Positions 6,933 through 54,400 of a stretch of DNA of 64,000 nt are shown here, one piece after another. The DNA is taken from positions 61,503-125,502 of IMG/VR virus record IMGVR_UViG_3300034103_001604. The stretch is one strand, 5' to 3'. A program made the position numbers and the translations under genes. This DNA is from a virus. A model generated the notes under the pieces. It did not search any database. It saw only the letters and a program-made list of their open reading frames with translations, and had not been told where the DNA came from. Numbering within the stretch: position 1 is the first letter of the stretch; each line of letters opens with the position of its first letter.

Positions 6933-7415
6933 ATGCGTATACTAGACTTAATCGAATCAGATAATACTATTAGAACTGGAGATGTATTTGCTCTAGAGCT
7001 TGATAACGGACTTCTTATAGAATCTGTTATCGTTGGATTTATGAATGACGGAGTTGTTATTCAAGGTGATGACACGGTGTTATCATATCTATCACATACC
7101 CCTGTCCAAGAATCTATCACTAAATTTACAGAAATGCAACTGGCAATCATGGAGGGCGGTGGCAGTCTTGATGAAGCCGAATATCAAGGACGCAATGTTC
7201 AGTTAGGTAAACCCATGTCTGGTGATGTTAAAAAATCTAAAGTTTATGTAAAAGGTCCAAAAGGAAATGTTGTCAAAGTCAATTTTGGCGATAAAAAGAT
7301 GAAGATTAAAAAGTCTAATCCTAAACGTCGCAAAAGTTTTAGGGCTAGACATAATTGTGCTAATCCCGGGCCGCGGTGGAAAGCAAGATATTGGTCTTGC
7401 AGAGCATGGGAGTAA
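6933..7415 (+). CDS. Conserved phage protein with putative capsid-targeting leader, 160 aa
   Basis: The N-terminus MRILDLIE|S matches a T4-type capsid-targeting leader ending in a prohead-protease site (hydrophobic-x-Glu, here L-I-E). The C-terminal half is very basic (KVYVKGPKGNVVKVNFGDKK) and ends with a Cys/Trp motif, HNCANPGPRWKARYWSCRAW, that I recall as a conserved module in marine T4-like phage proteins. The basic tail fits DNA or scaffold contact inside the head. It starts the run of leader-bearing genes. Packaging inside the head is inference; no enzymatic motif is seen. Confidence 0.65.
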   Translation: MRILDLIESDNTIRTGDVFALELDNGLLIESVIVGFMNDGVVIQGDDTVLSYLSHTPVQESITKFTEMQLAIMEGGGSLDEAEYQGRNVQLGKPMSGDVKKSKVYVKGPKGNVVKVNFGDKKMKIKKSNPKRRKSFRARHNCANPGPRWKARYWSCRAWE

Positions 7416-7419
7416 TCTA

Positions 7420-7785
7420 ATGTTCTTAAAAGAATTTTTCAGCAAACCTATTGACATTGATCATAATCAAAAAAATAAAAATCAAATGCAAAATTTTGAC
7501 GATGACTTATTTTGGTTTATTTTAGATAATGATCGGTTGCATAAAGAACATTTTTTTCCAATTTCTAAAAAAATAAAATCATTAGACGAATGTGGCGATC
7601 GACAAATATACGAATTGTTTATGCCAATGGTCGTAGACGGTTGTAAAAACTTTTATGAAGACAAAAAAATGTCCGGTAGGATGAATAAAAAATTTCCTCA
7701 AGAAATGAGAGAAGGCATTTGTAAAAGGTTGTATGACCACTATTGTGAAAATTATGGTTTGAGAAATAAAAATGAAAATCTTTGA
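7420..7785 (+). CDS. Conserved phage hypothetical protein, 121 aa
   Basis: I chose the ATG at 7420, just after the previous stop, rather than an in-frame ATG at 7357 that would overlap the previous gene's conserved C-terminus. The N-terminus MFLKEFFSK resembles the neighbouring leaders but lacks a clear cleavage triplet apart from L-K-E at 3-5. The central part (DDDLFWFILDNDRLHKEHFF) and the C-terminal part with KKFPQEMREGICKRLYDHY are patterns I recall from other marine phages, with no known function. It overlaps the next gene's start by 14 nt. Confidence 0.6.
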   Translation: MFLKEFFSKPIDIDHNQKNKNQMQNFDDDLFWFILDNDRLHKEHFFPISKKIKSLDECGDRQIYELFMPMVVDGCKNFYEDKKMSGRMNKKFPQEMREGICKRLYDHYCENYGLRNKNENL

Positions 7786-10700
7786 AATTATAAATATCTT
7801 TCAAAATAAAAAATTAACTGAAGGCGGTAATGCTCAAGTCGCCGATAGAGATAATCCAGAGATTGTATATTCTGCTGAAAAAATTGATCTTGAAAAAACT
7901 AACAGAACTCAGGCTGCTAATTTAGTAAAACAAACAATTAATGCGTTGAATCAAAGTTTTCAATCCATTTATAAAGAACCAATTTTTGGAGAAGAATTAT
8001 TTAAATCAAACGAATATTTAAGCGGAAGTTCTAAACACTTTTTTAATACTGCTGGAATTTCAGATCAAGAATTTACAAAATATAAACAAAAAGTCGGCGA
8101 TATCGATGTACAATGCGATGTAGATCAAAAACCACAGATACAAAAATTTTTAGATGATCATTATAAACAACAGTTTGGTCCAGGAAGATTATTGGGATAT
8201 TCTTCTTCTGCGGAACAATTCAATTCAATTTTTCGTATCGACGAAATTGGACTAAATGTTCAAATTGATTTTGAATTTGGGCAATATGATAAAGAATTAG
8301 GTCACCCCACCGAATGGTATAAATTTAGTCATAGTTCAGAGTGGGACGATATTACCGCAGGCATTAAGGGTGTATTTCATAAATGGATTTACAGAGCATT
8401 ACCTGCTGCTAAAGTAACTCCAAAGCACATAGCAGCATATAAAGGCTCGGGAAAAAATCGTGCTATTAATATAGAACCAGAACCTACTCAATCAAAAGAT
8501 ATAAGTTTTGCAGTAGGAAGCAGTCAGGGAGGTGGAGCAAGTTATAAATTCTCTCCTTACTTAGATCCGCAAACTGGAAAACCTATGGATATAAAAGGTG
8601 TTCCTGTACAACAAGAATTGCCCAGCGCTCAAAGAACTTATATACAAAATTTAGATCAACAGTTCGAAATGTTTTTTGGAGTGCAGCCCAGCGGAAACGA
8701 TAAAACTTTACAAAAAAGTTATGTAGGGACTTTAGAACTAATGAACAAATATTTAGATCAAAGTCAAATAACTGCTGCATTTGAAGAATTTATAAAAATT
8801 TGTTTTGACGAAGCAGCACAGATGATCGATCGAGATAATCCAGAATCCGATGCTGAGGCAAAATTTGCCGCAATTGATAAAGGACTAGAAATTTTAAAAA
8901 TTTCAAACAAAAAACAATTACGAGATCAAGCAGTAGCAATGGCAAAAATATATTCAGATGAATATTTTGATTTACAACAATTTAAGAAATGGTTTGATAG
9001 TTTACCTAAAGAAAAACAAGATGCTATCAATGTAACCAGCAAAGGTGCTGCTAGAAAAGATATTCAGTATAATTCTCTTAGAAAAAAATTAAAAGCAGCC
9101 GGACAATGGCCTATTAATGTATTAACAGAAGAAGATGCCAAGCCAAATTATGGTAGGCAAGGTATTGAACACATTTATAGTCGTAGACCCGACGGTACTC
9201 CAAGTAGTACAGAAATGAAGCCTGCTGCATTCGTAGAATTATGCGACGAAATAGCACAACTAGGCGGAAATTTAGATAATATACAGATAAATTTAAAAGT
9301 CGACGGAATGGGTATGAGATTCGGTAAAGACGAATCTGGAGAGCCATTTTTTATTACTAGCAGTAGATCAGATCCAGTTAGATTAAAAGATGTAGGATCA
9401 TTCTTGGCTTATAATCAAGAATTAGTAAAAAAAGGTGAATTAGATCCGAACAGCGAATTAGGTAAAGCCGCAATTGCAAGAGCAATTAATTATGACAAGG
9501 CTGCTGAAACAATTTTAAAAAGTAAATTTATTCAAACTTTACCCCCCGACACAATTGTACAAGCAGAAATGATGTACGATTCGAATATGACTCCAGACAG
9601 TCAAGGATTTAAAACATTTGTTAATATTCCTTACGATGTAAAAAAATTAGGGAAAGTAATGACGTTGGCCCCGTTCATGGTTAAAAAGTATTCAACTAAA
9701 GAACGAATACCCGATGAACAAAATATAATTAAAAAATTACTATCAACAAGTGATTCTAACATTAAAATTATTTCAAACGAATTAGATCAATCAGGAATAA
9801 ATGTTGGTAAAATAATTGCTCCTGTTGTCAATTTGCCTGCAGATTTGCGGGCAACACTGACTAGCAGAAAACCAGCAGACAGAGCCATTAGAGATGCTCA
9901 AGTAATTCCTGTATTAGATAAAGCAAGGGCAGAATTAAGTAAGGCAATTATTGATAGTCCAAAATTAAAAGGTATGGATATGCTAGGCCCATACAACGAA
10001 GGTATTGTTGGAAACATGCCTAGTGGAAGACTATTTAAAGTTACAAGTCCCTTGATGAAAGAAAAAATATTACAAAAGCAATCATTTGGATCTGTTGAAA
10101 AAAGATCTGCGGTTGTTGCCATGGGTAGTTTTGCTGGACATAGAGGTCATGAACAGTTAATAAGTATTGCCATAGATAGAGCAAATAAAGAAGGAGCGAC
10201 TCCATTTGTATATGTAGGTGGTAAAGTAGGACCAGATGATCCATTTCCTGTAGAAACAAAATTAGAAACTCTTAGAAAACTATTTCCAGGAGTAGGCATA
10301 TTAAGTGTAGACGCACAATTTGATTTACAAACAGATAAAGCAACAATTGGTCAATTTGGTAAGAAAGTCGAATATGAACTAATGAAAAAACCGCCGTATT
10401 TTAATCATATTATTATAGCAGTAGGCGAAGACAGAAAAGCATTTGCAGATGGGTTAGTTGCATGGGCAACCAATAGATTTGGAAACCATCCAAATCTAAA
10501 GCATGTTAAATGGGAAGAAGATATAAGTTCTCGAAATGAAGAAGCAGGCGGAACTGGTGTAAGCACTACTCAAATGAGAAATGCATTAAAAACTATGCCT
10601 GAAAATCAAGCCCTTCAAATATGGAGCAAAGGTTTTAATGTAGAAAAATTAGGTGTTGAATATATCAAACACCTAATGGATGTTGCAAGAAAAAATATGA

Positions 10701-11029
10701 ATATCCAACCTCCCGCTGCTGCTCCCGTAGTAGAATCATCTATATTTGATCCTGTACCTGGAAAAATAAATGTAGGTGATTTAGTTTCATTTAAAGGTTC
10801 TAGCGAAACATGGAAAGTAATAGCAGTTAATTTAGATCGATCTAAAGCAAAAATAAAATCAGTTGACACAGGAATGATTCATAAATTCGACACTGAAAAT
10901 CTTTATAAAATTAATAATAAAGATTATACATCAGAAACTAGATTGTTTAATGCACTATTAAGGTTAAATTTTACCAATGAAACAGTATTACATCACTCAA
11001 GAAAATATCGCACAAGACAGCCCCGATGA
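7772..11029 (+). CDS. Three-module nucleotidyl-transfer protein with putative capsid leader, 1085 aa
   Basis: The leader MKIFEIINIFQNKKLTE|GG carries an L-T-E prohead-protease-type site at 15-17. Module 1 looks like a polymerase-beta-type nucleotidyltransferase: GSS at 85-87, D110-I-D112, and a later Asp in VQIDFEF. Module 2 looks like a covalent nucleotidyltransferase of the DNA/RNA ligase superfamily: motif I K509-V-D-G, a motif III-like E599, motif IV E743-G-I-V, motif V F-K756-V. Module 3 looks like a HIGH-superfamily adenylyl/cytidylyltransferase (NMNAT-like): G-H790-R-G-H793 and S931-T-T-Q-M-R936. An SH3-like tail ends the protein. Domain calls rest on motifs read by eye; substrates are unknown. 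Repair, end-joining or NAD-linked chemistry on nucleic acids after injection are possibilities, not conclusions. Confidence 0.7.
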   Translation: MKIFEIINIFQNKKLTEGGNAQVADRDNPEIVYSAEKIDLEKTNRTQAANLVKQTINALNQSFQSIYKEPIFGEELFKSNEYLSGSSKHFFNTAGISDQEFTKYKQKVGDIDVQCDVDQKPQIQKFLDDHYKQQFGPGRLLGYSSSAEQFNSIFRIDEIGLNVQIDFEFGQYDKELGHPTEWYKFSHSSEWDDITAGIKGVFHKWIYRALPAAKVTPKHIAAYKGSGKNRAINIEPEPTQSKDISFAVGSSQGGGASYKFSPYLDPQTGKPMDIKGVPVQQELPSAQRTYIQNLDQQFEMFFGVQPSGNDKTLQKSYVGTLELMNKYLDQSQITAAFEEFIKICFDEAAQMIDRDNPESDAEAKFAAIDKGLEILKISNKKQLRDQAVAMAKIYSDEYFDLQQFKKWFDSLPKEKQDAINVTSKGAARKDIQYNSLRKKLKAAGQWPINVLTEEDAKPNYGRQGIEHIYSRRPDGTPSSTEMKPAAFVELCDEIAQLGGNLDNIQINLKVDGMGMRFGKDESGEPFFITSSRSDPVRLKDVGSFLAYNQELVKKGELDPNSELGKAAIARAINYDKAAETILKSKFIQTLPPDTIVQAEMMYDSNMTPDSQGFKTFVNIPYDVKKLGKVMTLAPFMVKKYSTKERIPDEQNIIKKLLSTSDSNIKIISNELDQSGINVGKIIAPVVNLPADLRATLTSRKPADRAIRDAQVIPVLDKARAELSKAIIDSPKLKGMDMLGPYNEGIVGNMPSGRLFKVTSPLMKEKILQKQSFGSVEKRSAVVAMGSFAGHRGHEQLISIAIDRANKEGATPFVYVGGKVGPDDPFPVETKLETLRKLFPGVGILSVDAQFDLQTDKATIGQFGKKVEYELMKKPPYFNHIIIAVGEDRKAFADGLVAWATNRFGNHPNLKHVKWEEDISSRNEEAGGTGVSTTQMRNALKTMPENQALQIWSKGFNVEKLGVEYIKHLMDVARKNMNIQPPAAAPVVESSIFDPVPGKINVGDLVSFKGSSETWKVIAVNLDRSKAKIKSVDTGMIHKFDTENLYKINNKDYTSETRLFNALLRLNFTNETVLHHSRKYRTRQPR

Positions 11030-11298: not shown

Positions 11299-11733
11299 AT
11301 GGAACAATTACACCAATTAGCAAAAATAGCATTTGCCAGCGAGTTTAGTTTTTATCTAAAAGCACACCAATTCCATTGGAACGTAGAAGGTATGTTTTTT
11401 GAACCTTTGCATAATCTATTTGGTAAAATTTACGAAGAAGTTTATGAAAGCATAGATGTGTTTGCTGAACAAATTCGTAGTTTAGATACATATATGCCCG
11501 GCAGTTACACTAGACTTAATATGTTAACACAAGTCGAAGACGAAACAGAAATCTTCGACGGTAAGCAAATGGTTGCTGAATTGCTTAAAGATAATGAAAA
11601 AATGAAAGTTATCTTAAAGAAATTGTTCGAAGTCAGTGAAGCAGCAGGCGAACATGGATTTAGTGATTTTATTGCTAGTAGATTAGATGCTCATGCTAAA
11701 CACGGTTGGATGTTAAAGGCAACACTTAAATGA
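11299..11733 (+). CDS. Dps-like ferritin-family protein, 144 aa
   Basis: The helical pattern and motif AHQFHWNVEGMFFEPLHNLF, followed by ESIDVFAEQIRSL, match the Dps family (DNA-binding proteins from starved cells), which bind and oxidise iron at a dimer interface. By alignment to E. coli Dps, H26, H38, D53 and E57 correspond to H51, H63, D78 and E82, while the position of D67 is G42, so the iron site may be altered. Length is slightly short of the usual 150-190 residues because the N-terminal DNA-binding tail is missing. It overlaps the next gene by 4 nt (ATGA). Protection of genome or host DNA from oxidation is the likely role. Confidence 0.85.
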   Translation: MEQLHQLAKIAFASEFSFYLKAHQFHWNVEGMFFEPLHNLFGKIYEEVYESIDVFAEQIRSLDTYMPGSYTRLNMLTQVEDETEIFDGKQMVAELLKDNEKMKVILKKLFEVSEAAGEHGFSDFIASRLDAHAKHGWMLKATLK

Positions 11734-12095
11734 GAGCACGCGAATTCATGGTTGAACGCAAAGGCGGAAAAATGACCAAGCGTCAACAAAATCCTACCCG
11801 CGGCGTTAACAAATACACTGATGACGATAAGTGGAATAGCGATTACAAATTATATAGATTGGGCTTGGCACTGGCTGCAACTGATGGAAAAACAATGCCA
11901 GAGATGGATGAAGAAAGTTGGATCGGTAGATATAAAAGTCTACATCCATATAGTCAATGTGATCAAGATATGATCAATGTTGCGGCTAAAGTAGCCGGAG
12001 TTAATATACACGATGTAAACAAAGGTGACATGAGAAGTCAAGAAACACCAGATACTTATACAGTAAGTCCAGTGGCGAATTGGAGTAAAAAATGA
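11730..12095 (+). CDS. Conserved phage protein with putative capsid leader, 121 aa
   Basis: MRAREFMVE|R fits the leader pattern seen in neighbours (M-V-E cleavage triplet at 7-9). The rest contains a strongly conserved-looking block (KWNSDYKLYRLGLALAATDG, then SWIGRYKSLHPY and KVAGVNIHDVNKGD) that I recall from marine T4-like phage proteins of unknown function. It is small and soluble, without cysteine clusters. ATGA overlaps join it to the dps-like gene upstream and the mosaic gene downstream, so it is translated with them. An internal head protein is the best guess. Confidence 0.6.
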   Translation: MRAREFMVERKGGKMTKRQQNPTRGVNKYTDDDKWNSDYKLYRLGLALAATDGKTMPEMDEESWIGRYKSLHPYSQCDQDMINVAAKVAGVNIHDVNKGDMRSQETPDTYTVSPVANWSKK

Positions 12096-14041
12096 ACGAA
12101 GAATTTAAAAAAGTTAAATTACCTAATGAAACTAGGTACGTTTTAGAAACAACAACTGCAGGTGCTATTGGAACGAATAGTATTGCTACTGCGGAAAAAC
12201 CCCTAGGTGAACTTCAAAGACGACAGACAATTTCTGTGCCTGTTAATCAGAAGCCTCGTCAAGGTCCGATGAAATCACAGACCGGTGCAGGTGCGCATCG
12301 TGATAAGAAAAAAGAACAAAAACAAGGTAAAGAAAAACATCGTAAGCCTTTTGATGAAGAGAAAGGTGTAGCAGAAGGAATTGAACAAGCCGATCTAAGT
12401 CCAGAGGTTATTGAAATATCCAAGGATCTTTATAAATCCTTGCGTCGTTCAGCCAGAGATTCGTTACGAGCCAAAAAAACTATGTTAGTTATTAAGATAA
12501 CCCGTGAATTGACCCCTCAAGAAAAAAAACTAGTAGATGACACTATGAATCAATCTGGTATTGAGTATCAGATCAAAAATAATGTAAACGATTATGTGTA
12601 TGGAACCTATAAAAATACATTAATCGGTATACCATATACACAATCTACTACGGAACAAGGTGTGGCGGAAACAACAGGTGACGAAAAATTTGATAAATCA
12701 ATGAGAAAAATGACTGGAAAAATTACTCCAGGCGATGCTGACGAGATGTGGCCGACACAAGAATTTGAACCAGTTGATCTTGATCCATCATACTTGCCAA
12801 GTATGGAAAAATACAAGGCAAAATTATTTCCATTGGCTTACCAATACTGGACTGACGGCGACAATGCAGATGAATTAAGGGCATTAGGATGGGAACCCGA
12901 TTATGGCGACGACTATGTTATGGTGGTGCTGTCTGGCATCGGACACGACGGTCACATTCAATACGACAAATATGATTTTGATGCTGAAGATGAAAACAAT
13001 GAAGGTGTGGCGGAAGGCGATCAAGAACCTGACCACGAAATTAGCATGGCCAGCAACGAACTCCAAAGTATCATGTCTGATGCTAAAAAATTATTAGTTC
13101 TAATCAAACGTTATAGCGAGATGGAAGGGCTAGAAGCATGGCAACAAAGTAAAATTACTAAATCGGCAGATTATTTAACTGCTGTATTGCGCAGCATCGG
13201 TGGAGAACAAGGTGCGTTAGAATCTCAAGTTAATGAGTACGAAACCCACACTTATAAAGATAGTCAAGGCAATGTATGGCGTGTCAACGACGAGGGCGAA
13301 AAAGAATTACTTCGTGGAGCACCGGGCAGTAGTTATGGCGGTAGCAGATATGGATCAAGATATCCTAGTAGATCATATTCAAAGCCTTCAGGAATGTATT
13401 TTTATAACGTAAAACCTGGGCAAGAAAATGATGCACAATCTGCTGGTTTAAAACAAAGCAAAAGTGGAAAATGGTATTCGACTTATCAAAATTCACAAGC
13501 AGATAAATTATTTGGTCCAGGAAAGTTTTGGCAACCAAAAAATGAAGCAAGTGTAGCGGAAGGTATGAATTCTTTATCATTCTGGAAGCGTGAAGCACAA
13601 AAGGCCGGTGGTGCTGCCAATATTGATTGGTATGCTATTGGCGTCGAACACGGCAAACAAGGTATTGTAATGAATCCTCCATATGGTGTAGGCGCTAAAG
13701 CCGTAACATTATACGGCAAAGGATTAGATGCCGGTCAGCAAGGTGTAGCGGAAGGCAAGAAAAAAGGTGTAGATGGTAAAGCCTGCTGGAAAGGTTACAA
13801 ACGTATGGGCACTAAAAAGAAAGGTGGCCGCACTGTAGACAACTGTGTACCAGTAGGCGAGGATTCTTATATCGAAAGTCTTATGAATCAACTATATGAA
13901 AAGGCTCCTCCAGGAGACAAATATGAACGTATAGTCAAGCATATTAAAGCAGGATATAGAAAAGACGGTAAACTAACTGATGTAGAAAAACGCAAGGCCT
14001 ACGGTGCTGCTTGGAAGGCAAAAAATAAATCAAAAAAGTAA
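12092..14041 (+). CDS. Mosaic internal-head-type protein with five V-A-E sites, 649 aa
   Basis: Five near-identical linkers ([QEK]-G-V-A-E-[GT] or S-V-A-E-G) place V-A-E sites at E95, E193, E308, E490 and E554, splitting the protein into six segments. V-A-E fits the T4 prohead protease rule (hydrophobic-x-Glu, cut after Glu); V-L-E at 17-19 could be a leader site. Segments are unrelated: a basic N-terminal part, an alpha/beta domain, an acidic domain, a helical domain (LQSIMSDAKKLLVLIKRYSE), a Cys-containing basic domain (DGKACWKGYKRMG), and a C-terminal lysine-rich domain (KYERIVKHIKAGYRKDGKLT). I recall the last three from other phages' proteins. Processing into packaged peptides is inference. 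The gene ends at a -1 frameshift signal. Confidence 0.7.
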   Translation: MNEEFKKVKLPNETRYVLETTTAGAIGTNSIATAEKPLGELQRRQTISVPVNQKPRQGPMKSQTGAGAHRDKKKEQKQGKEKHRKPFDEEKGVAEGIEQADLSPEVIEISKDLYKSLRRSARDSLRAKKTMLVIKITRELTPQEKKLVDDTMNQSGIEYQIKNNVNDYVYGTYKNTLIGIPYTQSTTEQGVAETTGDEKFDKSMRKMTGKITPGDADEMWPTQEFEPVDLDPSYLPSMEKYKAKLFPLAYQYWTDGDNADELRALGWEPDYGDDYVMVVLSGIGHDGHIQYDKYDFDAEDENNEGVAEGDQEPDHEISMASNELQSIMSDAKKLLVLIKRYSEMEGLEAWQQSKITKSADYLTAVLRSIGGEQGALESQVNEYETHTYKDSQGNVWRVNDEGEKELLRGAPGSSYGGSRYGSRYPSRSYSKPSGMYFYNVKPGQENDAQSAGLKQSKSGKWYSTYQNSQADKLFGPGKFWQPKNEASVAEGMNSLSFWKREAQKAGGAANIDWYAIGVEHGKQGIVMNPPYGVGAKAVTLYGKGLDAGQQGVAEGKKKGVDGKACWKGYKRMGTKKKGGRTVDNCVPVGEDSYIESLMNQLYEKAPPGDKYERIVKHIKAGYRKDGKLTDVEKRKAYGAAWKAKNKSKK

Positions 14042-14080: not shown

Positions 14081-14259
14081 AAGATAAACCTAAATTAAAG
14101 CCGGCAGTAAAATTAACTCCTGCCGTGTCATTGGATCAATGGGAACAAACTTTTTTAGATGCTGACCCAGAAAGATATCATCAATTTAGAAATAAAACTC
14201 CTGCTAAAAAAATTCAAATGGCACAGTCTGCTAGAAAACACGCTATTGAGAAAAACTGA
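14038..14259 (+). CDS. -1 frameshift extension of the mosaic protein, 73 aa
   Basis: This frame has no ATG before codon 61 and no GTG or TTG start with a ribosome site, yet it is open for 73 codons and looks like a real protein (AVSLDQWEQTFLDADPERYH, then KTPAKKIQMAQSARKHAI). Entry by -1 slippage at 14032-14038 would give a 722-residue product. Its TGA stop overlaps the ATG of the next gene (TGATG at 14257-14261), as in translated, coupled neighbours. It opens with V-S-E, another possible protease triplet. A weak alternative is independent initiation at GTG 14125 (44 aa). Confidence 0.6.
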   Translation, partial: VSEQEPQDPAQDPAQDKPKLKPAVKLTPAVSLDQWEQTFLDADPERYHQFRNKTPAKKIQMAQSARKHAIEKN

Positions 14260-14687
14260 TGAGAAATTTTATAACATTAGTCGAATCGGCAAATAAAGGT
14301 TGCCCAATTGCCACACATAACATAGATATTAATTTAAAAAATCGGCAAAAAGCCATAGACGAATATCACTACGGGCCAGCCAATCCCGATAAACCAGAAG
14401 ATTATTGGAAAAAATCTGCTAAGATATTTGGAGTAAGTGAGACAACTGCTAAAACAATGCGATGCGGTAATTGTGCAGCATTCGATGTTAGCGATAGCAT
14501 GAGGGAATGCATTGCAACTGGGATTAAAGGCAACGAAAAAAATATTGACCCAAACGCAACTATAAATCTCAGCGATCTAGGATATTGTAATTTTTTACAT
14601 TTTAAATGTGCAGGTAGTCGCAGTTGTAAAGCATGGGTTACCGGAGGCCCAATTACTGAAAAAGATAAAGGTAAGAAAGCAGATTAA
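14259..14687 (+). CDS. Cysteine-rich phage protein with putative capsid leader, 142 aa
   Basis: The leader is MRNFITLVE|S (L-V-E at 7-9). The mature part has a conserved-looking set of cysteines (CPIATHNI; MRCGNCAAFDVSDSMRECIA; GYCNFLHFKCAGSRSCKAW) that could bind zinc or an iron-sulfur cluster. It ends in a motif (VTGGPIT) that I recall with the Cys pattern from proteins of several marine phages. Metal binding is inference from spacing only. The ATG overlaps the stop of the frameshift frame. Confidence 0.65.
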   Translation: MRNFITLVESANKGCPIATHNIDINLKNRQKAIDEYHYGPANPDKPEDYWKKSAKIFGVSETTAKTMRCGNCAAFDVSDSMRECIATGIKGNEKNIDPNATINLSDLGYCNFLHFKCAGSRSCKAWVTGGPITEKDKGKKAD

Positions 14688-28433: not shown

Positions 28434-29282
28434 ATGGCAAAAATTAAAGTTAGTGAACTATTTTATTCTATCCAGGGAGAAGGAAGATATATGGGCGTGC
28501 CTAGTGTGTTCTTAAGAACATTTGGGTGCAACTTTACCTGTGATGGATTTGGAATGCCTAAAGGAGAAAAATCAAATGAACGACACAATGTGGCAAGTCG
28601 TATTTCAGAGTTTAAACAGTATAGAGATTTACCTCTTGTTCATACCGGTTGTGATTCTTATGCTAGTTGGGATCCTAGGTTCAAAGACCTTTCACCTATG
28701 GTTGAAACGGATGGCCTTGCGGAGGATATCGTCAACCTCTTACCATACAAAAGATGGACGAGGGAACATTTAGTCATTACTGGAGGCGAACCTCTTTTGG
28801 GATGGCAACGTGCTTATCCAGAGTTACTAGAACATCCAAAGATGCAGAGTCTTAAAGAAATTACATTCGAGACGAACGGTACTCAAAGATTAGACGAAAA
28901 ATTTAAAAAATATCTAAAAGAATGGCAAACTGCTAACCGTGATCGAGAAATTACTTTTAGTGTCAGTGCAAAACTTCCTGCAAGCGGTGAACTGTGGGAA
29001 GATGCAATTAAACCAGATATTGTATATGATTATTCCACAGTCGGTTATACGTATCTTAAATTTGTCGTAGCCACAGAAGATGACATTAAAGATGCGTTAA
29101 TGGCAATGGGAAAATTTAGAGACGAAGGTTTCCTTGGTGAAGTATATCTTATGCCTGTTGGAGGCGTCGAAAGTGTTTATAATTTAAATAATAAAAACGT
29201 AGCACTGGCATGTATGAAACACGGTCTTAGGTACAGTGATAGATTACAAGTACCGCTTTTTAAGAACGAGTGGGGAACTTAA
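28434..29282 (+). CDS. queE: 7-carboxy-7-deazaguanine synthase (QueE), 282 aa
   Basis: QueE is the radical SAM enzyme that makes the 7-deazaguanine core from carboxytetrahydropterin. LFYSIQGEGRYMGVPSVFLR is the QueE N-terminal signature, LVITGGEPLLGW the SAM-binding G-G-E-P motif, and ITFETNG a further family element. The cluster cysteines are C32-x3-C36 and then, after a long insertion, C73 (HTGCDSYASWD), instead of the compact CxxxCxxC. The upstream promoter and ribosome site support this start. It complements dpdA and the QueD-like gene. Confidence 0.9.
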   Translation: MAKIKVSELFYSIQGEGRYMGVPSVFLRTFGCNFTCDGFGMPKGEKSNERHNVASRISEFKQYRDLPLVHTGCDSYASWDPRFKDLSPMVETDGLAEDIVNLLPYKRWTREHLVITGGEPLLGWQRAYPELLEHPKMQSLKEITFETNGTQRLDEKFKKYLKEWQTANRDREITFSVSAKLPASGELWEDAIKPDIVYDYSTVGYTYLKFVVATEDDIKDALMAMGKFRDEGFLGEVYLMPVGGVESVYNLNNKNVALACMKHGLRYSDRLQVPLFKNEWGT

Positions 29283-42438: not shown

Positions 42439-45400
42439 TTAATTTGAATTTCCGTAATACCATTTATCAGGAATTTCTGTAGAATGTCGCCTTATGAACT
42501 TAGATTGAATTGACTCGGATTCCATCAACGATGTTGATGTATTCCAATAATTTCCTATTTTTTGTTCTATTTCAACTTTAGTTCTTAAAGTAAAATCTTC
42601 AACATGAATATTTAATTCAAAATTACCAGTTGATTCATTAAATTTAACAGTAAATTCTGGATCAAGTGTTCTTAAACTTGTAGACGTAGAATCGTATGCT
42701 AAATTGTAATCATGTACTTTAGACGCAGTTTTTCTCAACAGTCTACCACCAAATTTAACAGAAATCTGATCGTTAAGGTACTGCTCTAAACCATTTGTTG
42801 TACTTAATATAATACCATCTCCACCAGACTGATACATAGTTCCGGTGTTAATAACAAATGAACTTGAACTAATAGCAATCGTGTACGTTCCATTAGAATT
42901 TGTAACAGTATTAACAACATATGTTCCAGTGGCTTCAGATGTTATATGATACTGTTTCTTAATGGTATCAGTATAAGGAATAAATTGTTGAGGGCTTTGA
43001 TCAAAGACTTTTGTTCCAACATCGGATATTTCTGCAGGAGAAGTACCCATAGTACCCCTTCTAAGTCCGCTTAGTACATTACTATCTTTAGAGAAAAATT
43101 CAATTCTTTCGCTATCGACGAATATAACTCCCGGAATATTTCTGTGGAAATTAGGAGGTATTAAACTTGAAGAATCTGTTACATGAATTTCAGTATCAGT
43201 TAACTTTAATTCTTTAGTTAATCTTGTACCGTAAAAATTAGATAATCTAGAATATGTGGTTCTATTAAAAATGTCATTAAATATTTTATATCCATAAACT
43301 AAATTAGATCGTAATGTTGTCGAAACATATGAAATAGTAATTTCGTCATCAGATTGAATACTAATAGAATTGTTTAGTGAAACTGTTCTAAAATCATCCA
43401 AAATAGTAAAATCATTGTTAGCAATCAAATATTGTTTATTCAATGCTACCCAAACATATCTACTATCAGATACCGGCAATCCTAAAGTAAATTTTAGACC
43501 AGCATCGCCTTTAAATCTTTCCGTCCTCAACATCATTCCATCATAATCAGCAAATGATATAACTTTAACTGAACTAGAAGGTTGAATTGGAGTTGTAAAA
43601 ATTATAGTGTTATTATTAATTACATAATCAAAATTAACTAATGATTCAATTGCTAAAATTGCGCCGTTAGATGCTATTCCAGATGATATTGTCACTGTAC
43701 CAGTAACACTATTAATAGAATAATCAAAACCAGGAGCAAGCAATCGACCGTTTAAATAGACTTTAATATTTGAATTAGTATATGTTCCCGGAGGACGGCT
43801 TGTATTGTCAATATTGAAAGTTGTTGTCGATCCATCCAATTTATAGTAATTAACATCAGGAGGATTTAAACGCTTTCTGCCTTTAACTAAAGTAGTCGAA
43901 TCTGGTTCATATACTTCAACAAATACTTGAGCACTTAACGGCTCAGTTGTTCCTAATAAATTTGTGACCAAAATACTAGAAGTAGGTGCTGCAATACTAA
44001 ATTGTTCTTCAAATATTTGACTAAATTTTCCAAAATTAGATTTTAAAAACCAAGCCTGGATTGTTCGTTTACTGTCTGCAATATTAGTTACCCTAACTGC
44101 CGCCCTCTTATTTTTTGGTCCCGCAGGTATTAGTTCGTAATTGCTAGAATTAACTTCACGACCGTCTATTGTCACATATACACTTCTTATATCATCAATA
44201 AACGCAGAACTAATCAATGTCGCAGTACTCTGTCCATATTCAGTTAATAACGTAACCGAGTCTGCAACATATTCTCCGCCAATAGTTAATAAATTGTAAC
44301 CTACTTTACCGTTAACATCTTGAGGCGCAATATACAATTCATCATTCATAACGTAAAATTGAGAAGAGGTTGTAAAGAAATACTCATCAACAACTCCACT
44401 GCTAGGAGGTTCATATATTCTATCTAACATCTTTCCTTCGAAATTTACAGTTATATAAATTGATTCTTCTAAAGGTACTCCCAATTTAAACGATGATATA
44501 GCGTTTGCACTAATAGGGACTATACCGGACATTGCAATCGGCGACGATTTATTTTCTTGAGTAAACACATTGATAGAAACAGATTCATATGTATTACCTT
44601 TAACATGCTCTTCCGGTGATTGACCAATATTTTGAGATATTAATCCACTACCGTCAATAACTAAATCACCAGGATTAATGCCAAGGGCTCCTACAAAATT
44701 TCCAGAACCGTTCCACGACCCTGCACTTATTTCAGTATCTAATTCATCAAAACTAAAGTTATCTTTCCAAAATTCTACAATTGGATATCCATACAAATCA
44801 ACTTTTATTTTGTTTGTTACATTTGAATTTAGATTAAAAATTTCAACATTATATGTGTTATTTGAAGTAGTTGAAACATTATAATAACTTCCATACAATA
44901 GATCGTTTACATATATGGTAACCGTAGAAACACTGTTAAATAAAACATTTGTGTCATAGGCCACTGTTGAAGTATTAGATACTAAATTTTCAAAAGAATA
45001 AATGTTGTAAAGAGAATTTACATTAACTTCATTAAATACCGCCGGAACAGTTACCTTTGCAGTTACACCTAAAGTTTTTACTGTTGATGTTGTCAATAAT
45101 GTAATAGCGTGTGTTCCGGTTCCTACAGCAGTAAATCTATCTGTTCCAGAATTAGTAACAATATATTTTCCGTCAAATCCTAAAATAGTTCCGTCGTCAA
45201 CTCCGGATATTTCTATAATAGAACCACTAGTTATTTTTCCATTAAAATCTTCGGTAGTAAAAAATACTATATTTCCTTGAGTAGTTAAGGAATCAGATAT
45301 AATTCGTTTTAATCTGTATTCAGAATTTGCAATAGAAACTGTTTTAGTAGAAGTATTAACAGCAGATACTACTGCATCACTTCTTATATGAGATGTAGAA

Positions 45401-48400
45401 GTATTTGTTAATAAAATTTTCTGACCAATACTTACACCTTCAACAGAATCTAGATAAAGAACTGTTCCAGAATAATTTATATTTTTAACTAATTTAGCCG
45501 AAGTATAATAGTTAACTAAATTTGACCACGCTGAATCGTTATCAAAATAACCGTAATTCCATGGTAACGAATAACCAAAATTTAACCCTTGAATTACTGT
45601 ATTTTTATATTCTGCTCCCGACATCAATAGCGGGATTTCTTTACCTACCATATCGTCCGTTGGTTGATAAAATTTGTTAATTCTATCAACAGCATGATAA
45701 ATTGATATATTTTTCTCGTAGGTAATTTTAAATTTTTGTCCTAATTTTGGAATATAATTTAAAAATACAAACTCACAATATTGACTTGTATAATTATTAA
45801 TATTTTCTGTAAAATATTCAATTGTATAATCAGTTGAAAAAATAATTTTACTATCCAATAAAGGAACAATTTTTGATTTATTCGGTTGCGCTAACCATGT
45901 TAATCTAAATCTATTATTTCCAGTACACTCAAAAGTTTCAGTAATTCTAGAACTATCTATTTCTTCATTAACTCCAGTTCTATCAAATTTAATGCCTAAT
46001 ATATTTTTTCTAATATAATCATTGCCTAATTCTACCGAAACCTTTGCAGGTTTTACAACATTTGGGCCGCCACCGACTATAGTAACAGTAGGTGGTCGAA
46101 CATATCCGCTTCCAGGATTTGAAACTAAAACTTTAAATACTCCGCCATTTCGAATATATGCTTCTGCAGTTGCTCCACTGCCTGTATCACCGAGTGCAGG
46201 AGTTATAACTACCGTAGGATTCTGTGTGTATCCTTCTCCGTTGTCAGCAACTAAGACATTCTTAACATAATATTTGTAATTGTCAGCCCACCATTTCCAA
46301 GGATACTCAGTAATCTCACTACTTGTCAATCCAACTAATTCATAACTGTTTGAAACAGTATTAAAATATGCAGGCAAATCAAAATCTGTAGATACACTAT
46401 TTGAAGTTTCATTTGTTAATGAGTATTTTGATGTGTAAGATCTAATTTTTGTTCTATATGGTTTTACTTCTCTAATATAATCTTCGAAATAGTTTTCGTT
46501 GTCTAACCTATAAACTGATTTTTGATCTAATTCGCCAACTTGATTGTTAACAGAAATAAAACTAGTTTTAAATACCCAATCTAAAAGTTTTTGTTCAGTA
46601 AATGCATATCGAACTGCTTTAAAGAAGAATAAATTCCAATTTATTTTTAGATTACCTACAAAAATATCGTCTTTTAGGGCATATAAAATATGATTTAATT
46701 CTTGATCAGGAATTTGATCATATAAAGTTTCTTCCAATGTAGCAGCGTCATAGGAATAATTAGATTCTTTAAAATTCCAAATTTCATCAGAAATTTGAAT
46801 TGTTCCATTTTGGCTATAGACAATTTTATATTGTAGGGCAAAATCTCCTATTTGATCACTATCTAATTTTTCTAGAATTATGTATCGACCATCACCTACA
46901 TTATTGATTTTTACATAATCACCCGTGACAGTAGAAGACGCTATCGGCAATTCTGTTGGATCTTTTAATACTACTGCGTAGTCTTTATAACCATTGTAAT
47001 TTTCGTCTACCCAATCTACATAATTCCAATACAACGGAGTATTATAAGATTGTGTCTGAATTCTTGTCCAATTTTTAAATTCATAATTGAAAAGATGTTT
47101 AGTCCACCTGTTTCCGTATTCTGAATTTGTTCGAACAATCGTCGTGTGCCCTCTTATAATAATTTTTTCTGAACTATCTAAATTTCCTAGATAATTTTTT
47201 CCAGGGTTAGAAATTATTACATTAATAACTCTTCCACTTCCGTCAATTTCAGATAATAGTTCGGCACCTTCTCCAGAACTAGAAAGTATTTCAATTTTTG
47301 GAGGAATGCTATACCCAAAACCAGGATTTATAATTTCAACACTAACTACTTTTCCATTATATGTACTATAGATTAGTTCTGCTTGTGAGAATTTAGAAAT
47401 ATCAATTTGATCTAATTCTTCTAAATCATCAACAATAAAATCATACTCTCTAGATAAAATATCTGGTATTTCTTCTTTCTTATTTAGGTTAGTAAAATCA
47501 TAAAACCCAGTAATTTTATTTTTTATTAGTACAGAATTAGTAAACTCAACAAGATTTCTTAACGCCAATAATCTATCTTTAAACATTGATTGACGAGGTC
47601 TTATTTCTATGCCATACCTATTTCTTACTGATAAATTTAAATCAGGAACTGTTTGACCTAAATCATCGTGACCTAATAAACTATCAAATAACTTTTTAGT
47701 TAACGTGGTAGTTGGGACACTGTCTTTATTTCCTTCTTCTAATAGCAACCATTCTGTATGTTTAGGAATATTATTATTAATTTCATCAAATGAAATGTTT
47801 GAATTAATTCTATCGCCGACTAAAATTGGTTGAACATTCGCAAACGAAATAGCATTTTGAGACAATATCGATGCAAATCTTATTCCATTTGCAGCAGGAT
47901 CTAAAATCAAATTAGCAACTTGTATAGCACTGATTCTTCTATTACGAGAATTAGGTACAGTAACTTTATTTTTTACCCAGAAATAATAAACATTCTCAAA
48001 AGAATTAGTAACATTGTTGAACACCTGTTTAACAGACATTACTGAATTATCTGGATATTTTGGTTGTCCGCTAATTCCTTTTGTTAATCCTTCATTAGTA
48101 TCTGCTTGCGCAGCCCATTCTGACGGCAATAAATCGGATTTAACCCATTCGTAAATATCTATACTTGATCCAGGAAAAATTTTACCCCAATTATTTTTTC
48201 TAAATATTTCATCGCCCTGTTCATACCATAGATATTTAACAGTACTTAGATCCCACCATAAATCACCTATATGGTCATCAATCCAACTAGAATTTGAATC
48301 TACAGAATTTAATGCAGTTCCTATCGAATACATTGCAGGATCAAACGTAGATTTGTATTTTAACTCTTGTTCTGCTAATCCTATAATTTTTCCTTTTACA

Positions 48401-51400
48401 GGATCAAAAATATCTAGATACTCAATTATTTCTTCTTTAAAAGAATCTATTAATTTAATACTTTTGATTTTTTGAGAATCTACTAGATTTGGTTGATTTC
48501 TTAAAACTTTCCAACTGTTGATTGAAGTATCTAATTTGTCAAATTTAAAGAACGTAGAATCGTCTAGAGAAGTAGCATTTTTAATCCACGGTGCGCCTAC
48601 AAGAATAAAATCATTTAGAGAAGACACAGAAAAACCAAATCTACTTCCTTCTAAAATTGAAGAATCGCTTAATTCTTCAGATTGAATAAAATATCCATCT
48701 AAGTTGTTGAAAACATAAACAGTTCCAGAATCGTCAACAGGTGAAATAAATTCTGTGCTTCCTTTATCAAATGTTGTTTTTCCTACATTTGAATTTTCAT
48801 CAAATACATAAGTTGATGATCTATTTCTTCCAAGAGCGCCTACTGTTAAAATATCTTCATTCTTGTTTAGAGAAATACTTACTCCAAATTTTAAATCTGT
48901 AGTAAACGATGGATTTTCTATAATTTGATTTAAGACGTAAGTTCCAGTAGATGTTAAATTTGTAGCAGAATAAACTGCAATATTTCCAAATGTACCATCA
49001 CTATTTTTTATGTCAGGAGACGAAATTAATAAGAATTTTCCTGACGATGAAACAAAAATATCAGAACCAAATGTTCGATTTTCTTCAAACGGAGAATATA
49101 TAACTTGCTTTGAAACTAAATTTTTATTAAAAATTTCCACCAACCCTGTTTTACTACCGGTTGTAAATCCAGGTGCCGAAACTGCAATAAAATTTCCATT
49201 ATCGCTTCCGGATATTTTTTCACCCCACTTACTGTATTGAGTAAGTATTACGGAAGAAGTTAAAGATATACCAGCGGTATGTTGAACTAAACTTATTGCG
49301 TTAGAATCAGTAGAAGTAGTTAAATGATATGCAAACACAAATCCAGTTGATGTATTGTTAACTCCATCGCCAGGTGCTCCAATTAATACTGTCGTAGCAG
49401 TTGATTTGTTAACTTTATCAACATATATTGTATTTCCGAATCTTAAATAATTTGCTTTAGCAGATGTGTTAGAGTAAGAGCCTGGAGCAAGCAATATTGC
49501 TACAGTTTCTTCCTCTTCTACTGTAGATTTTTCTCTACTAATTTTTACTAATCCTTCAGAAATAAATCCCTTAGAACTTCCCGTGCCCGTACTAAAAGAA
49601 ATTGTTCCAGTGTTGTTAGTAATAATATTAGATGCTTTAGGTGCTCCAGCAAAAATTAATTCTTTACCATCATCATAATTTAATGTATATCCAAATTCAG
49701 AATTTGTCGATGTACTGCAATAAATTTTGTTGTTTGAATTTAAAATGTATTCGAACAACTTATCTAATATATTCTGTTTTTGGTTGTAAACCCATATTCT
49801 TCCAACACTATTAGCACTACCGCTGTTCCAAGATGGAGAAGAAACTAAAACAACTTGAGAATTGTCTCTAGCATAAATTGAATACCCTAATTCTTGTCCA
49901 AAAGGATTACCCAAAGAATTAAAATAGGTTCCTGTACTATAATTTTTAACTTTTTCATAGACAGACCACTTTTGATCAACTTTATCTACCCAAATTTTTT
50001 CTCCGTTTTCAAATTTATATAATTCTTTAAACTCTGAAACTTTTAAAAAATCTTCAAATCTAACTGATTGAAATTTAAAAATACTACCTAGTTCAACAAG
50101 ATCGTCGTCTACAATCGAAGATAGAGTAGAATCAACTGTAAATTGATTTAATTTTGGTACTGCTTTAACATTATAGATACCGTTTACTTGATCATTAAAA
50201 TTAACAACGGAAACAATATCTCCAATTTTTAAATCATGAAATAGATCACAAGAAAATGTGATATCAATTCCAGGTGAACTTACAAACACTCCTGTAATTT
50301 TTGCTGTTTGTTTAGAATACCTGTAAACGTCCCAATTTCCATTGTCTAAAAATCCTATCCATATTGTATCTTTTTCATTTAATAAATTGTTGTTTGCAAT
50401 ATCAAGAATACTGTTAGTGTTGTATGCTGTTACATTTACATCATCGGGTCTAACATAACCTGCTGAAGGAAATTGAAATAAACTTTCGTCTTGCACTTCA
50501 TTTTTACTAATCTTAAATACGTCATTTATTTCAAAATTTGTAGGCTTAATTAAAATATCTTCTGATAGAATATAATTAATTAAGTTATTTTTTTCTGCAG
50601 GAACTTCATTGCTAAACTTAACAATATAAGGATTTTCTAAAGAATTTCCTTCATTTAATTTAAATTCTACTTCTTGGAATGTTTCGTATCCACCATAATG
50701 ACCGACTCTAAATGCCCACTCTTCAGTAAAATTAATACTTCCTTTTCTAGCATAAGATCCAACTTTTACAATTTTATCTAATGCGTTTTTGGTTCCTTTT
50801 TCTTTAATGTAACCTTGATAAAATTTATACTGAGTTGTTGGGTTAGTAAAAATGTTATTTAAATAAGGTCTCTCAGAGTAACCTATTAGGTGTTGCGCTA
50901 ATTGTTGTTGAGAGATATCAAAATTATCAATATCTAAACTGTAAAAATCTTCAAACTGATTAATCTTATAAGAAAAATTAGGCAATAAATCTGGAGAAGG
51001 TTGTTCTCTTAATTTCGACCATTCATTAAAATTAAAAAATTCACTTCCCACAATTTTAATGTTTGATTGATAATAAACTCCATTATACCTAACAATTGAA
51101 CCCGGCAAGTAGGAAACAAATGGTTTCCAATCGCCAACAAAAACTTCATCATAAACAAATCCCGGACTAAAGAAATCACCGTTCCAATTTGCTGTTCTAA
51201 ATCCAGAAATTTTTAATCTTCTTTGTCTGTAGCCGGTGTCTAAATCATAAATTATATCATTGAATAATGTCCTATTATCAAAAATCATTGCATGTTCTTT
51301 TTGTACAGTATTCAATAATGCAAAAAACAATCCTTCTTCAGTGTTAACAGTTTCGATGACACAAATACCATCATCTCTAGATAACTTAATATTTTCTTTT

Positions 51401-54400
51401 GGAAAACTTTTTCCATCTGCTTTTAATAAGTTATATTCATAAGAATTATAATTGATATCATCAACTATAGAATTCTTATTTCCAAATTTTAAAGATTTTG
51501 CAAAAGGACTAATTGTTATGAGATTATTATTACTCCAATTTTGAGTTGTCCAAAATAAAAATTCTTTCGCGGAAAATTTCCAATCTAATATCTCAGTTAG
51601 GTCATTATCATACTGATCAAATATAAAACCATTTGATTCTAACCAACGACTGTAACCTAAAATAACATTATAAACTTCTTGAATTGTAGAATACATTGTT
51701 CCATACGGAATACGAACAGACCTTGATTCAAATAAAGATGGGACTAAAACAGTAACTCCGCCTTTTACTGGTAATTTTGATATTGGTTGGAATAATGTAG
51801 GATCAAAATTTGAAGAAGCATTATGACCAACTTTTACTCTATAGTATGAATTATTGTATCTAACCAGTTGACCTGATTTATAATACCTAGTGGTATTAAC
51901 GTTGGCTGTAGTTGTATCAGAAAAAGTTACACTAGAATTTGCATTACCAGTAATGCTAGACCATTCAGTAAACGGTTCTGCAATCCCTCCGACCGTAACT
52001 GATTTTGAATTTCCAGATATAATAGCAGGAAAAATTTCAAAATATGGATTTGATTTATCGTATCCTTTAATTAAAAATTTTCCATTGTATTTTTGAATTA
52101 CAATACCAGAAATTCTAAATGATTGAATTGTATTACTTTTATTTAAAATAAGGTCATAATTTTCAGGAGGTAAAATGGCGCCCTGTGACATAGAAGAAAC
52201 ATCAACAGTGTCCATAATCAATTGAATTTTGTTTTTACTTGTAAATCCTCCCAATTTATGAAATAGATTAAAGTCTAAGAAAGACAAATCATTTTTTAAA
52301 GTGTTTAAATAATTGAGATTTTTCAATCTACCATATTCTATAATTAAATTTCCAAATCCAGAACTTTGGTTATTTTCATTATCAAAAATTAACTTATTTG
52401 GGTTCAAATATAAATCATCATTGTATAAAATTTGATTTAATTCATTAATAGTTGTCCTACTAACATCAAACAATTTAGAAGTATATGAACAAGGATCAAG
52501 TAAGGCCGCTACAATGTTTAATGCAAAAGGCCAAAGACTGCTTCTTCTCCATGCAACTTCTGCAGGACTGAAATCTCCAAATTTCCAATCTTGTTGTTTT
52601 TCAAATATAGAAGATTCTGATACTAAAAATGTATCAGGAGATTTTAAATTTCCAAATTCATCTACCGGTATAATAGATAACAATCCAGATCTTGCATAAT
52701 TTAAGTTATATCTATTTTCTCCTCGAATGTATCCATTACTCAAGTCTGTCCAAAGCAATACATTTGAAGATGTATACGGTGCTAATCCGTAAGTAGTTGT
52801 CCACCAGTTTGGTCTTTCATTAAAACCCAACATTTCCCACGGTGTTAAATGAGGCTTATCTGTATCATAAAAATACTGGTATATTCCTCGCCATGAACCG
52901 CTTACATTTTTTGAAAATAAAGTATCAACAGTTGTTGAATAGTTAAATGTAAAAGGATTTGTTTCATCAAAGGTTGTATTTGACGAAAAATTAACATTAA
53001 ATTGATTTGTCCAATTTATAAATTCTTTTATTAAAATATTATTAGAGTCGTCGATTGTATATCTGTTGATTCTGAAAGCACCAGAAATGACAGAATTCAT
53101 ATCAAACAATTTAGAATTGTAACTTACTTTGATATTGTTATAAATTCTTTTTTCAAATTCTAAAATAATTTGATCCCTGTAATCACCATATGCCTTTGTT
53201 AAACTTCCATCGTGTCCAAGTATCATCGTCACTGGACCTTGTACATAAGAAGTATCTTCGACTATTGCAGGTTTAAATTTTGGATACAACCCCAATTTGC
53301 TAGGAGTCGGTGGCACAAAAGATCCTGTGGTGTCGTTATAAAAATAAATTTTAATTTTATCTCCAGTAGATAAATTTGATAATATTTCTACTGTCGAGTC
53401 TAACGAATTTATTTGATAATCTTGACCGTTAATTAGTAAACTATCATTTACATACACAGAAAGTGCATTAAAACTTAACTTTGTATTGTCAAAATTATCT
53501 CTAATAGGGTAAATTTTATTAACTACGATACCAACCGTAAATTCAGTAACAATTTTGTCTTCACCATAAGGTACCATATCGGACCTGTAAAATAAAGAAT
53601 CTATATTGTTGTTTCTGTTAATATACTTCAGTGCAATATCTAATGCTTCTGCAGGAGAAAACTGACTTTCAATCTTTCCTAATGTGTCAAACAAATTTAA
53701 TTTATATTGGTTATATAAGTACCCAACAAATCTTAAGGAATCTAAAACATTATGATCTTTTTTTGCTAAAAATAATTTTGAATATACTAGCGGAGTAGAA
53801 TTAATTATAAGCCTTGTACCAAATTTTGAATAATTGCTTAAATCTCTTAAATTGCTTTTTCCCGGAAATTGTCCTTGAAAATTTGTAATTTTTGGTATCA
53901 TCGATCCTACATGATCTGATAATTCACTTAATGTAAAACTAGAAATTGGACCATTTAATGGATTGTTAGTTAAGTTTAAAACAGGTTCATAAAATCCGTT
54001 GTTGTTTGGAGAATTATTAGAAAATATATTAAAATAAATGGCATCATTTTCTTTTAGCGGCTGTGAAAATGTGACCGTTGCTGTTTGATTAAAAGAAACT
54101 GTAGATTGAACAATATTATTGTTAACATAAGAAATTACTTGAGTAGATGTATCAAAAGGATAATCTAATGATTTTAATTCTATTGTTGTTGTATTTGTTT
54201 GAACCGTTTGATTTTCAACAATTGGAATTTTATATCCTTCCGCCGAAGACCAAACATTAACTAAAAAGTTACCTAATTTTAAATATCCTAATGCAAGACT
54301 TTTTTGAGAAGTTACGTTATCAATAGTAACATTTATTGTATCAGTAGTGAAATAGTTTTTAAAAAGATAGTTTCCTATTCCCGAATTATTATTCTTTAAA

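Follow-up and report, generated by a model that had tools for sequence, protein, structure and literature searches.

Why would a virus encode three unlike nucleotidyl-transfer enzymes in one polypeptide behind a short leader? The question is raised by a gene in a 64,000-nucleotide stretch of DNA, hereafter the window, which comprises positions 61,503-125,502 and forms the right-hand part of the 125,502-base virus record IMGVR_UViG_3300034103_001604 in IMG/VR. At 7772-11029 on the plus strand, an open reading frame with an ATG start and no internal stops encodes a protein of 1085 residues. We propose, with a probability of roughly 0.72, that this protein is a capsid-targeted polyprotein cut by the prohead protease, and that its modules have the folds of a Pol-beta-superfamily nucleotidyltransferase (NTase), an RNA ligase and an NMNAT. 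The reading draws on comparison with relatives and on structure models. Four further contigs carry the same gene, with DNA identity to the window of 99.0-100% over the stretches compared.

Catalytic motifs of all three modules are present and conserved. An earlier note on this DNA had picked out such motifs by eye, and a sequence check finds every residue that it named in place. The NTase has G85-S86, D110-I-D112 and D166; the ligase-type module has K509-V-D-G, E599, E743-G-I-V and K756; and the module of the HIGH superfamily has H790-R-G-H793 and S931-T-T-Q-M-R936. We aligned 52 non-redundant fused proteins, the window protein included. The NTase residues G85, S86, D110, D112 and D166 and the ligase residues K509, D511, G512, E599, E743, G744 and K756 are identical in 52/52. 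H790, H793 and R936 are identical in 51/51 aligned rows, the one remaining row being gapped, and position 931 is Ser in 46/51. Close relatives lacking K509, H790/H793 or D110/D112 had been named in advance as a sign of error, and a check found none of these residues lost. This invariance suggests that the motifs are more than chance.

Relatives of the fused protein come from searches with its parts. A search of 50,697 phage records with the whole protein returned 22 partial relatives, none covering 80% of it. Against IMG/VR, an NTase alignment found 29 loci, four of them from this phage, and a ligase-NMNAT alignment found 74, of which four (L049-L052) are this phage and 70 are others. Before counting, we excluded L049-L052 and four loci with a cut 5' end (L056, L082, L093 and L102). 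L047 and L048 do not enter the analysis. The remaining 66 loci and the window protein (67 in all) were dereplicated at 95% identity to give the 52 fused rows. Fused open frames span 955 to 1922 residues, some ended by a contig edge, some at the 3' end. The NTase locus listing, from which L035 (the record of phage CP21) was excluded, holds 24 loci: five fused, four repeats and 15 distinct stand-alone NTases. Two short peptide patterns for the NTase gave 86 matches in cellular genome contigs, none of which was confirmed.

The leader ends in a fixed motif. A Glu precedes the NTase in 52/52 fused rows, with L (33), I (13) or V (6) at P3, and the NTase starts with G-G-N throughout, bar one G-S-N. 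Leader length is 12-18 residues in the 37/37 rows that have an ATG and no preceding module, a count that leaves out ten rows without an ATG in the leader and five with an upstream module. A preceding module of about 120-510 residues occurs in L064, L070, L071, L073 and L119, and even so GGN is preceded by [LI]-x-E in each. The comparison of [LIV]-x-E/GGN across 52/52 rows thus bears out the prediction of a T4-type leader and a probable mature N-terminus at residue 18. The leaders of L020 (FKTYSEFLLE) and L025 (MKSFNQFITE, then NKILNE) resemble the T4 leader.

Stand-alone NTases begin at the same place. Among the 15 distinct loci, the residue before GGN is Glu in eight and Met in seven, and it is also Met in X1, Va1 and Mendera. 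We built a tree from 18 of the 52 fused rows and 17 stand-alone rows, with Mendera as a very long branch. The fused rows form one clade (support 100/99), and the label of Met or leader requires six changes, at least four of them forced by well-supported branches. On the simplest account, removal of Met and cleavage after Glu would be two routes to one free N-terminus. L028 has an open frame that reaches 186 residues further upstream, but AAGGAG lies 9 bases before the ATG of M-GGN. In L029 (3424-3462), M-GGN is followed ten residues later by E-GGN; the leader there perhaps arose from a repeated N-terminus.

Candidate cleavage sites also recur between the modules. In 52/52 rows, the final 25 residues of the linker ahead of the ligase include [LIVM]-x-E, against a mean of 15.9 and a maximum of 27 in shuffles, a statistic that ignores kinship among the rows. 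In 49/52, the site ends at most nine residues from the ligase start. P3 of these linker sites is L (32), V (11) or I (9), and the following residue is A (42), E (7), D (2) or T (1). The strict form [LI]-x-E occurs in 41/52 linkers, or 40/51 with the window protein, whose linker limits were set by hand, excluded (shuffle mean 10.5, maximum 18). Site density per 100 residues is 3.4 in linkers and 0.9 and 1.0 in the cores. Tails of at least 60 residues are present in 47/52 rows; their first 60 residues hold a site in 44/47 (shuffle mean 29, maximum 38), and V-A-E appears 58 times in the tails, where 5.5 occurrences are expected (maximum 13). In contrast to the linkers, the ligase/NMNAT junction has a site in 1/52. 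The sites of the window protein are E17, E453 and E988, and matches to [LIVM]-x-E also fall within its modules at E158, E764, E886 and E944.

This distribution, with linker sites in 52/52 rows and a ligase/NMNAT junction site in 1/52, sets back the idea of the three modules as a single lasting enzyme. The position of E453 between the NTase and the ligase-NMNAT part suggests that the fusion is a packaging device, not a single three-step catalyst. The three modules are encoded jointly, as first described, but with sites at E453 and E988 they probably do not last as one enzyme. Processing could instead be confined to the leader, in which case a packaged chain would lose residues 1-17 and stay one long enzyme with its linker motifs uncut. 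Cutting at E453 rests on sequence comparison, and precedent in part favors such trimming. Excerpts of the T4 account have Alt cut at both ends, with Alt and the internal proteins losing mainly short end pieces (PMC9026906), and in SPN3US, as far as the excerpted account goes, 13 of 14 mapped cuts take off N-terminal propeptides while the remaining one matures the protease (PMC10052503). Leader-only processing is nevertheless unlikely, given that the site before the ligase is kept in 52/52 otherwise unlike linkers and nearly absent at the ligase/NMNAT junction, that cassettes are inserted between sites, and that other phages encode the modules separately.

Inserted cassettes are bounded by sites of the same kind. 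Pfam searches of 12 tails found a domain above cut-off in three and none in the other nine. The three are HD_4 in L112 (E 2e-17), between E1019 and E1206; phage lysozyme with LysM in L091 (E 5e-16), between E957 and E1297; and ParB_N in L078 (E 3e-6), between E1165 and E1282. A zincin-type HELHH precedes the NTase in L073 and lies between E16 and E139. Sites also flank the inserts that L063, L078 and L083 carry between NTase and ligase. Furthermore, the window's next gene upstream (7420-7785) has a homologue that is fused before LME/GGN in L064 and, by eye, also in L070 and L071.

A protease of the right type is found in the same phage. A gp21-type protease (PF03420, E 2e-26) lies on contig G003, around 78455-78883, near a T4-type major capsid gene. 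Two comparisons of G003 with the window, spanning 12,714 and 20,000 bases, show no difference; the contig belongs to the same phage. Seven of 19 related records have matches to both the protease and the gp23 capsid protein. The capsid protein carries N-T-R-[KR]-x-L-x-E/[SA] near its start in 7/7, and by analogy with T4 its L-x-E/[SA] would be the cut point. In T4, according to excerpts of the same account, gp21 cleaves after L/I-x-E, and leaders of 10-19 residues direct internal proteins into the head (PMC9026906). Three related records of 192, 164 and 229 kb (G013, G015 and G022) have the fused gene and no gp21 or gp23 match; G016 encodes a protein of the same 1605-residue length as G015 and G022, yet both gp21 and gp23 are matched there. 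The comparison of relatives agrees with the earlier suggestion that the protein is packaged in the head and injected, which we carry forward as a presumed step. That the leader is unrelated to the capsid and the unpackaged protein acts late in the infected cell is very improbable: M-GGN stand-alone relatives have no leader, so packaging is dispensable there, but the leader ends in [LIV]-x-E whatever its length, the leader/Met label switches repeatedly on the tree, and a gp21-type protease is present.

The modules can be assigned at the level of fold. In profile searches, PHROG 19290, a family of unknown function, matches residues 15-377 (E 7e-30) and PHROG 3041, 'cytidyltransferase', matches residues 775-943 (E 5e-7). 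Pfam FAD_syn matches residues 776-814 with E 6e-4, below the family cut-off. Sequence searches of Pfam, NCBIfam and the PDB gave no credible match for the NTase or ligase module, and weak FAD_syn/RibF-type matches alone for the NMNAT-like module. Because sequence profiles were weak, fold comparison was needed, and we obtained AlphaFold models of the NTase (residues 18-400, alignment n=49) and of the ligase and NMNAT-like modules together (residues 451-990, n=45).

The NTase model has a mean predicted local distance difference test (pLDDT) score of 95.6 and a predicted template modeling (pTM) score of 0.91. All 50 matches listed by VIA belong to the Pol-beta superfamily, at Z 7.8 to 7.1, values below 8 that the tool's own note calls modest. 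They include Pol mu, beta and lambda, TdT, CutA and RNA uridylyl- and adenylyltransferases. Foldseek ranks mainly Pol mu, Pol beta and CutA highest (best E 0.016). Agreement among the VIA rows, together with the motifs, carries the Pol-beta assignment despite the modest Z. A BFVD structure search returned three matches at E 1e-3 or better, one of them an 'uncharacterized' phage protein. RlaP was considered as the identity of the NTase and rejected at profile level: its family PF10127 matches neither the window record nor eight related ones, and no row of it appears in the Pfam search of the window protein.

The model of the ligase-NMNAT part has a pLDDT of 79.7 and a pTM of 0.56, and the latter makes the relative placing of the two modules unsure. 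The ligase module matches a Naegleria RNA ligase, 6vt1 (VIA Z 11.3, root-mean-square deviation 3.4, 189 residues aligned), and an archaeal RNA ligase is among its Foldseek matches (E 0.004). The ligase-type rows among the matches listed are RNA ligases, the lists being filled largely by the NMNAT module. The NMNAT-like module matches NadM 2qjo at VIA Z 12.8, archaeal NMNAT 1m8j at 12.7, and PPAT and FAD synthetase at 12.2-10.9. The models therefore fit a Pol-beta-superfamily NTase, an RNA-ligase-like module and an NMNAT-like module, and with the invariant catalytic residues the three assignments of the earlier note appear right at fold level.

Several points weigh against the polyprotein reading and its fold assignments. 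V stands at P3 in 6/52 leaders, at 11/52 junctions and at E988, outside the L/I rule of T4; the window's L-T-E17 fits the strict leader rule and the six V rows do not. The sole ligase/NMNAT junction site is the window protein's own M-K-E764, and the shuffles, as said, take no account of kinship. The partial record that holds the window gives no PF03420 match, and 12/19 related records, some longer than 160 kb, match neither protease nor capsid protein. In CP21, a Campylobacter phage, the NTase has a leader and the ligase-NMNAT protein has none, and leaderless relatives indicate that packaging is dispensable in other phages. With respect to folds, Foldseek against the PDB gave no match for the NTase model at E 1e-3, in addition to the modest VIA scores. 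The PF10127 profile matched 0/9 among the window record and eight related records. PF09414 (RNA_ligase) has no match in the window record or four related records; its matches in the X1, CP21 and Mendera genomes, two of them below cut-off, lie elsewhere and not at this ligase. The HxGH motif is degenerate by eye in the distant relatives Va1 and CP21. Lastly, head targeting and cutting at E17 and E453 are events that we strongly infer from sequence.

As a head-targeted polyprotein, the chain could work as follows. The 17-residue leader would bring all 1085 residues into the prohead core, like a T4 capsid-targeting sequence. The gp21-type protease would then cut after Glu, very probably at E17 and E453 and less surely at E988. 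The products would be an NTase starting at G-G-N (436 residues), an RNA-ligase/NMNAT-like protein (535 residues) and a tail (97 residues), and these pieces would be ejected along with the DNA. In the host, the NTase might add nucleotides at RNA 3' ends and the ligase might seal breaks made by host defence RNases, while the NMNAT-like domain might make or use a 5'-5' adenylated dinucleotide such as NAD. We offer this role in RNA-end repair tentatively and at less than even odds. Fusion would allow a single leader to carry several enzymes, with the junctions as slots for further cassettes.

Other functions have to be considered for the released enzymes. A doubtful but serious alternative is that the NMNAT-like domain restores NAD+ drained by host NADases and that the ligase module adenylates a target other than RNA. 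NadM and NMNAT are the best fold matches of this domain, and phages carry NadV/NadM/NadR salvage according to excerpts of one account (PMC9503650). However, PPAT and FAD synthetase score close to them, so that the fold does not fix the substrate. Defence of NAD would also leave the strict link to the NTase and the ligase-type module unexplained, and Va1 and CP21 retain K-x-D-G but have an HxGH that looks degenerate. A role in DNA-end repair, in which the NTase and ligase would act like Pol mu plus a ligase to mend the incoming phage DNA or close it into a circle, is improbable. The top structure matches of the NTase include Pol mu, beta and lambda, but RNA uridylyl- and adenylyltransferases equal them in score (Z 7.8-7.2), the listed ligase matches are RNA ligases, and the NMNAT-like domain would be left without a role. 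A long shot is that head-targeted polyproteins serve T4-type phages as racks for cargo: behind one leader, prohead-protease sites would be slots for interchangeable enzyme cassettes, to be separated inside the capsid and shot into the host. On this same long-shot view the chemistry would be new and coupled, the NMNAT-like enzyme producing NAD or a different 5'-5' adenylate and its RNA ligase partner in the fusion attaching this to the 5' ends of RNA, as a kit for RNA capping or NAD-RNA tagging instead of one for repair.

The three enzymes also occur together outside the fusion. NTase D-x-D and ligase K-x-D-G are retained in X1, Mendera, Va1 and CP21, and HxGH is retained in X1 and Mendera. Va1 and CP21 have one NTase gene and one ligase-NMNAT gene. 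X1 and Mendera have separate genes in the order NTase, unknown, ligase, NMNAT. The gene between NTase and ligase (L010:3285-4229 in Mendera, L006:6849-7853 in X1) has a nuclease-like D ... x-x-K by eye, and PHROG 12709 is a single family of 552 positions that covers this gene and the ligase. Records with the NTase and records with the ligase-NMNAT or NMNAT protein number 15/15 in Campylobacter phages, 6/6 in Vibrio, 16/16 in Stenotrophomonas and 1/1 for X1, counts that include several GenBank/RefSeq pairs and few lineages. The accessions match, except for Campylobacter phage IBB_35, where the two genes are on different contigs. Eight Klebsiella phage records, three from cyanophages and one from an uncultured phage hold more distant HIGH-type NTases and gave no match to this NTase. 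The three enzymes likely form one pathway.

Known systems share parts of this arrangement. Excerpts on T4 describe Alt and IPI-IPIII with gp21, which are alike in the short L/I-x-E leader, the gp21-family protease and the L-x-E of the capsid protein; in these excerpts, each leader serves a single protein, whereas here one leader serves several enzymes with sites between them (PMC9026906). Polyvalent proteins, in the parts of their account available to us, likewise combine enzyme domains of different kinds in a single chain that is presumed to be injected (PMC5512222). There, RelA/SpoT, lysozyme and ParB-type domains are phage-type, Pol-beta NTases are of plasmid or conjugative type, and release of domains by proteolysis is proposed, with an embedded zincin as the protease (PMC5512222). 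In the present case its place would be taken by a head protease that works in trans at [LIV]-x-E junctions. The HExxH zincin motif occurs in 1/52 rows (L073) and not in the window protein; the embedded zincin is itself common and not universal in polyvalent proteins. The same parts of that account hold no NTase/ligase/NMNAT trio (PMC5512222).

Among repair pairs, the section on RlaP describes a Pol-beta NTase with a phage RNA ligase as a known repair pairing (PMC7824862 section 3.4.9). RlaP is alike in this pairing and differs in that PF10127 misses the NTase studied here and that no NMNAT partner appears in that section (PMC7824862 section 3.4.9). Phage NadM and NadR share the NMNAT fold of the HIGH superfamily; as excerpted, they are fused to Nudix or kinase domains, while here the NMNAT-like module is fused to a ligase-type one (PMC9503650). 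The X1 (Xanthomonas) and Mendera (Stenotrophomonas) clusters have the same NTase family and gene order and differ in being separate, leaderless genes with an extra gene between. In the open-licence papers searched, we found neither an enzyme polyprotein cut by a prohead protease nor the NTase/RNA ligase/NMNAT trio. The earlier note knew of no described enzyme with this arrangement. The arrangement is not unique to this phage: 70 contigs from other phages carry a relative of the ligase-HIGH pair, and all 52 non-redundant rows have the NTase, ligase and, one gapped row aside, HIGH residues.

If the reading holds, these comparisons suggest how one leader could load several enzymes into T4-type heads. 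Acting before the first phage genes are expressed would be a gain for phages. If such polyproteins are packaged and released by the head protease, virion cargo would be partly readable from sequence. Each segment bounded by [LIV]-x-E behind a leader would then be a candidate injected effector, making many phage domains of unknown kind testable. The co-occurrence of the uncharacterised PHROG 19290 NTase with RNA-ligase-like and NMNAT-like enzymes in four further phage groups places the three in one likely pathway.

Table 1. Features of the polyprotein gene and its neighbours, in window coordinates
Feature	Position	Strand	Basis
Leader, residues 1-17, ending L-T-E17; probable capsid-targeting-type propeptide	7772..7822	+	[LIV]-x-E before GGN/GSN, 52/52
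Pol-beta-superfamily NTase, predicted mature residues 18-453	7823..9130	+	PHROG 19290, model, residues 52/52
Second candidate prohead-protease site L451-T-E453, NTase/ligase linker	9122..9130	+	Equivalent [LIVM]-x-E in 52/52 linkers
RNA-ligase-like nucleotidyltransferase module, about residues 454-777	9131..10102	+	VIA match 6vt1; residues 52/52
NMNAT-like HIGH module, about residues 778-985	10103..10726	+	VIA matches; residues 51/51 aligned
Third candidate site V986-V-E988	10727..10735	+	Site in 44/47 tails
C-terminal tail with stop codon (residues 989-1085); cassette position that varies among relatives	10736..11029	+	Sequence, tail variation
Upstream gene, homologue fused in frame in L064	7420..7785	+	48% identity over 111 residues
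Neighbouring 649-residue protein, possible second polyprotein	12092..14041	+	Five x-V-A-E sites between segments

Neighbouring genes may encode further head cargo. The 649-residue protein downstream has x-V-A-E at E95, E193, E308, E490 and E554, with C-terminal matches to PHROGs of unknown function, and may be a second polyprotein. Left of the window, L042:13481-14542 (G000:53281-54342) encodes 353 residues that start M-L-I-R-E-L-I-F-E/G-G-W and show G-S ... D-M-D by eye. This protein, which has no Pfam, PHROG or phage-record match, is maybe a second packaged Pol-beta-type NTase. Leader-like starts are seen at window 6933-7415 (MRILDLIES), 11730-12095 (MRAREFMVE) and 14259-14687 (MRNFITLVE), possibly marking more cargo. 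Directly downstream of the polyprotein gene, window 11299-11733 encodes a ferritin/Dps-type protein (Pfam Ferritin, E 6e-20). A separate small HIGH-type protein (DLLHAGH, by eye) lies left of the window at G000:51196-51672. Window 28434-29282 encodes a radical SAM protein that is QueE-like by eye, which makes 7-deazaguanine DNA modification possible; in X1, QueE-like genes and queuine genes lie close to the NTase cluster. On the minus strand, window 42439-56160 is a single open frame of 4573 residues.

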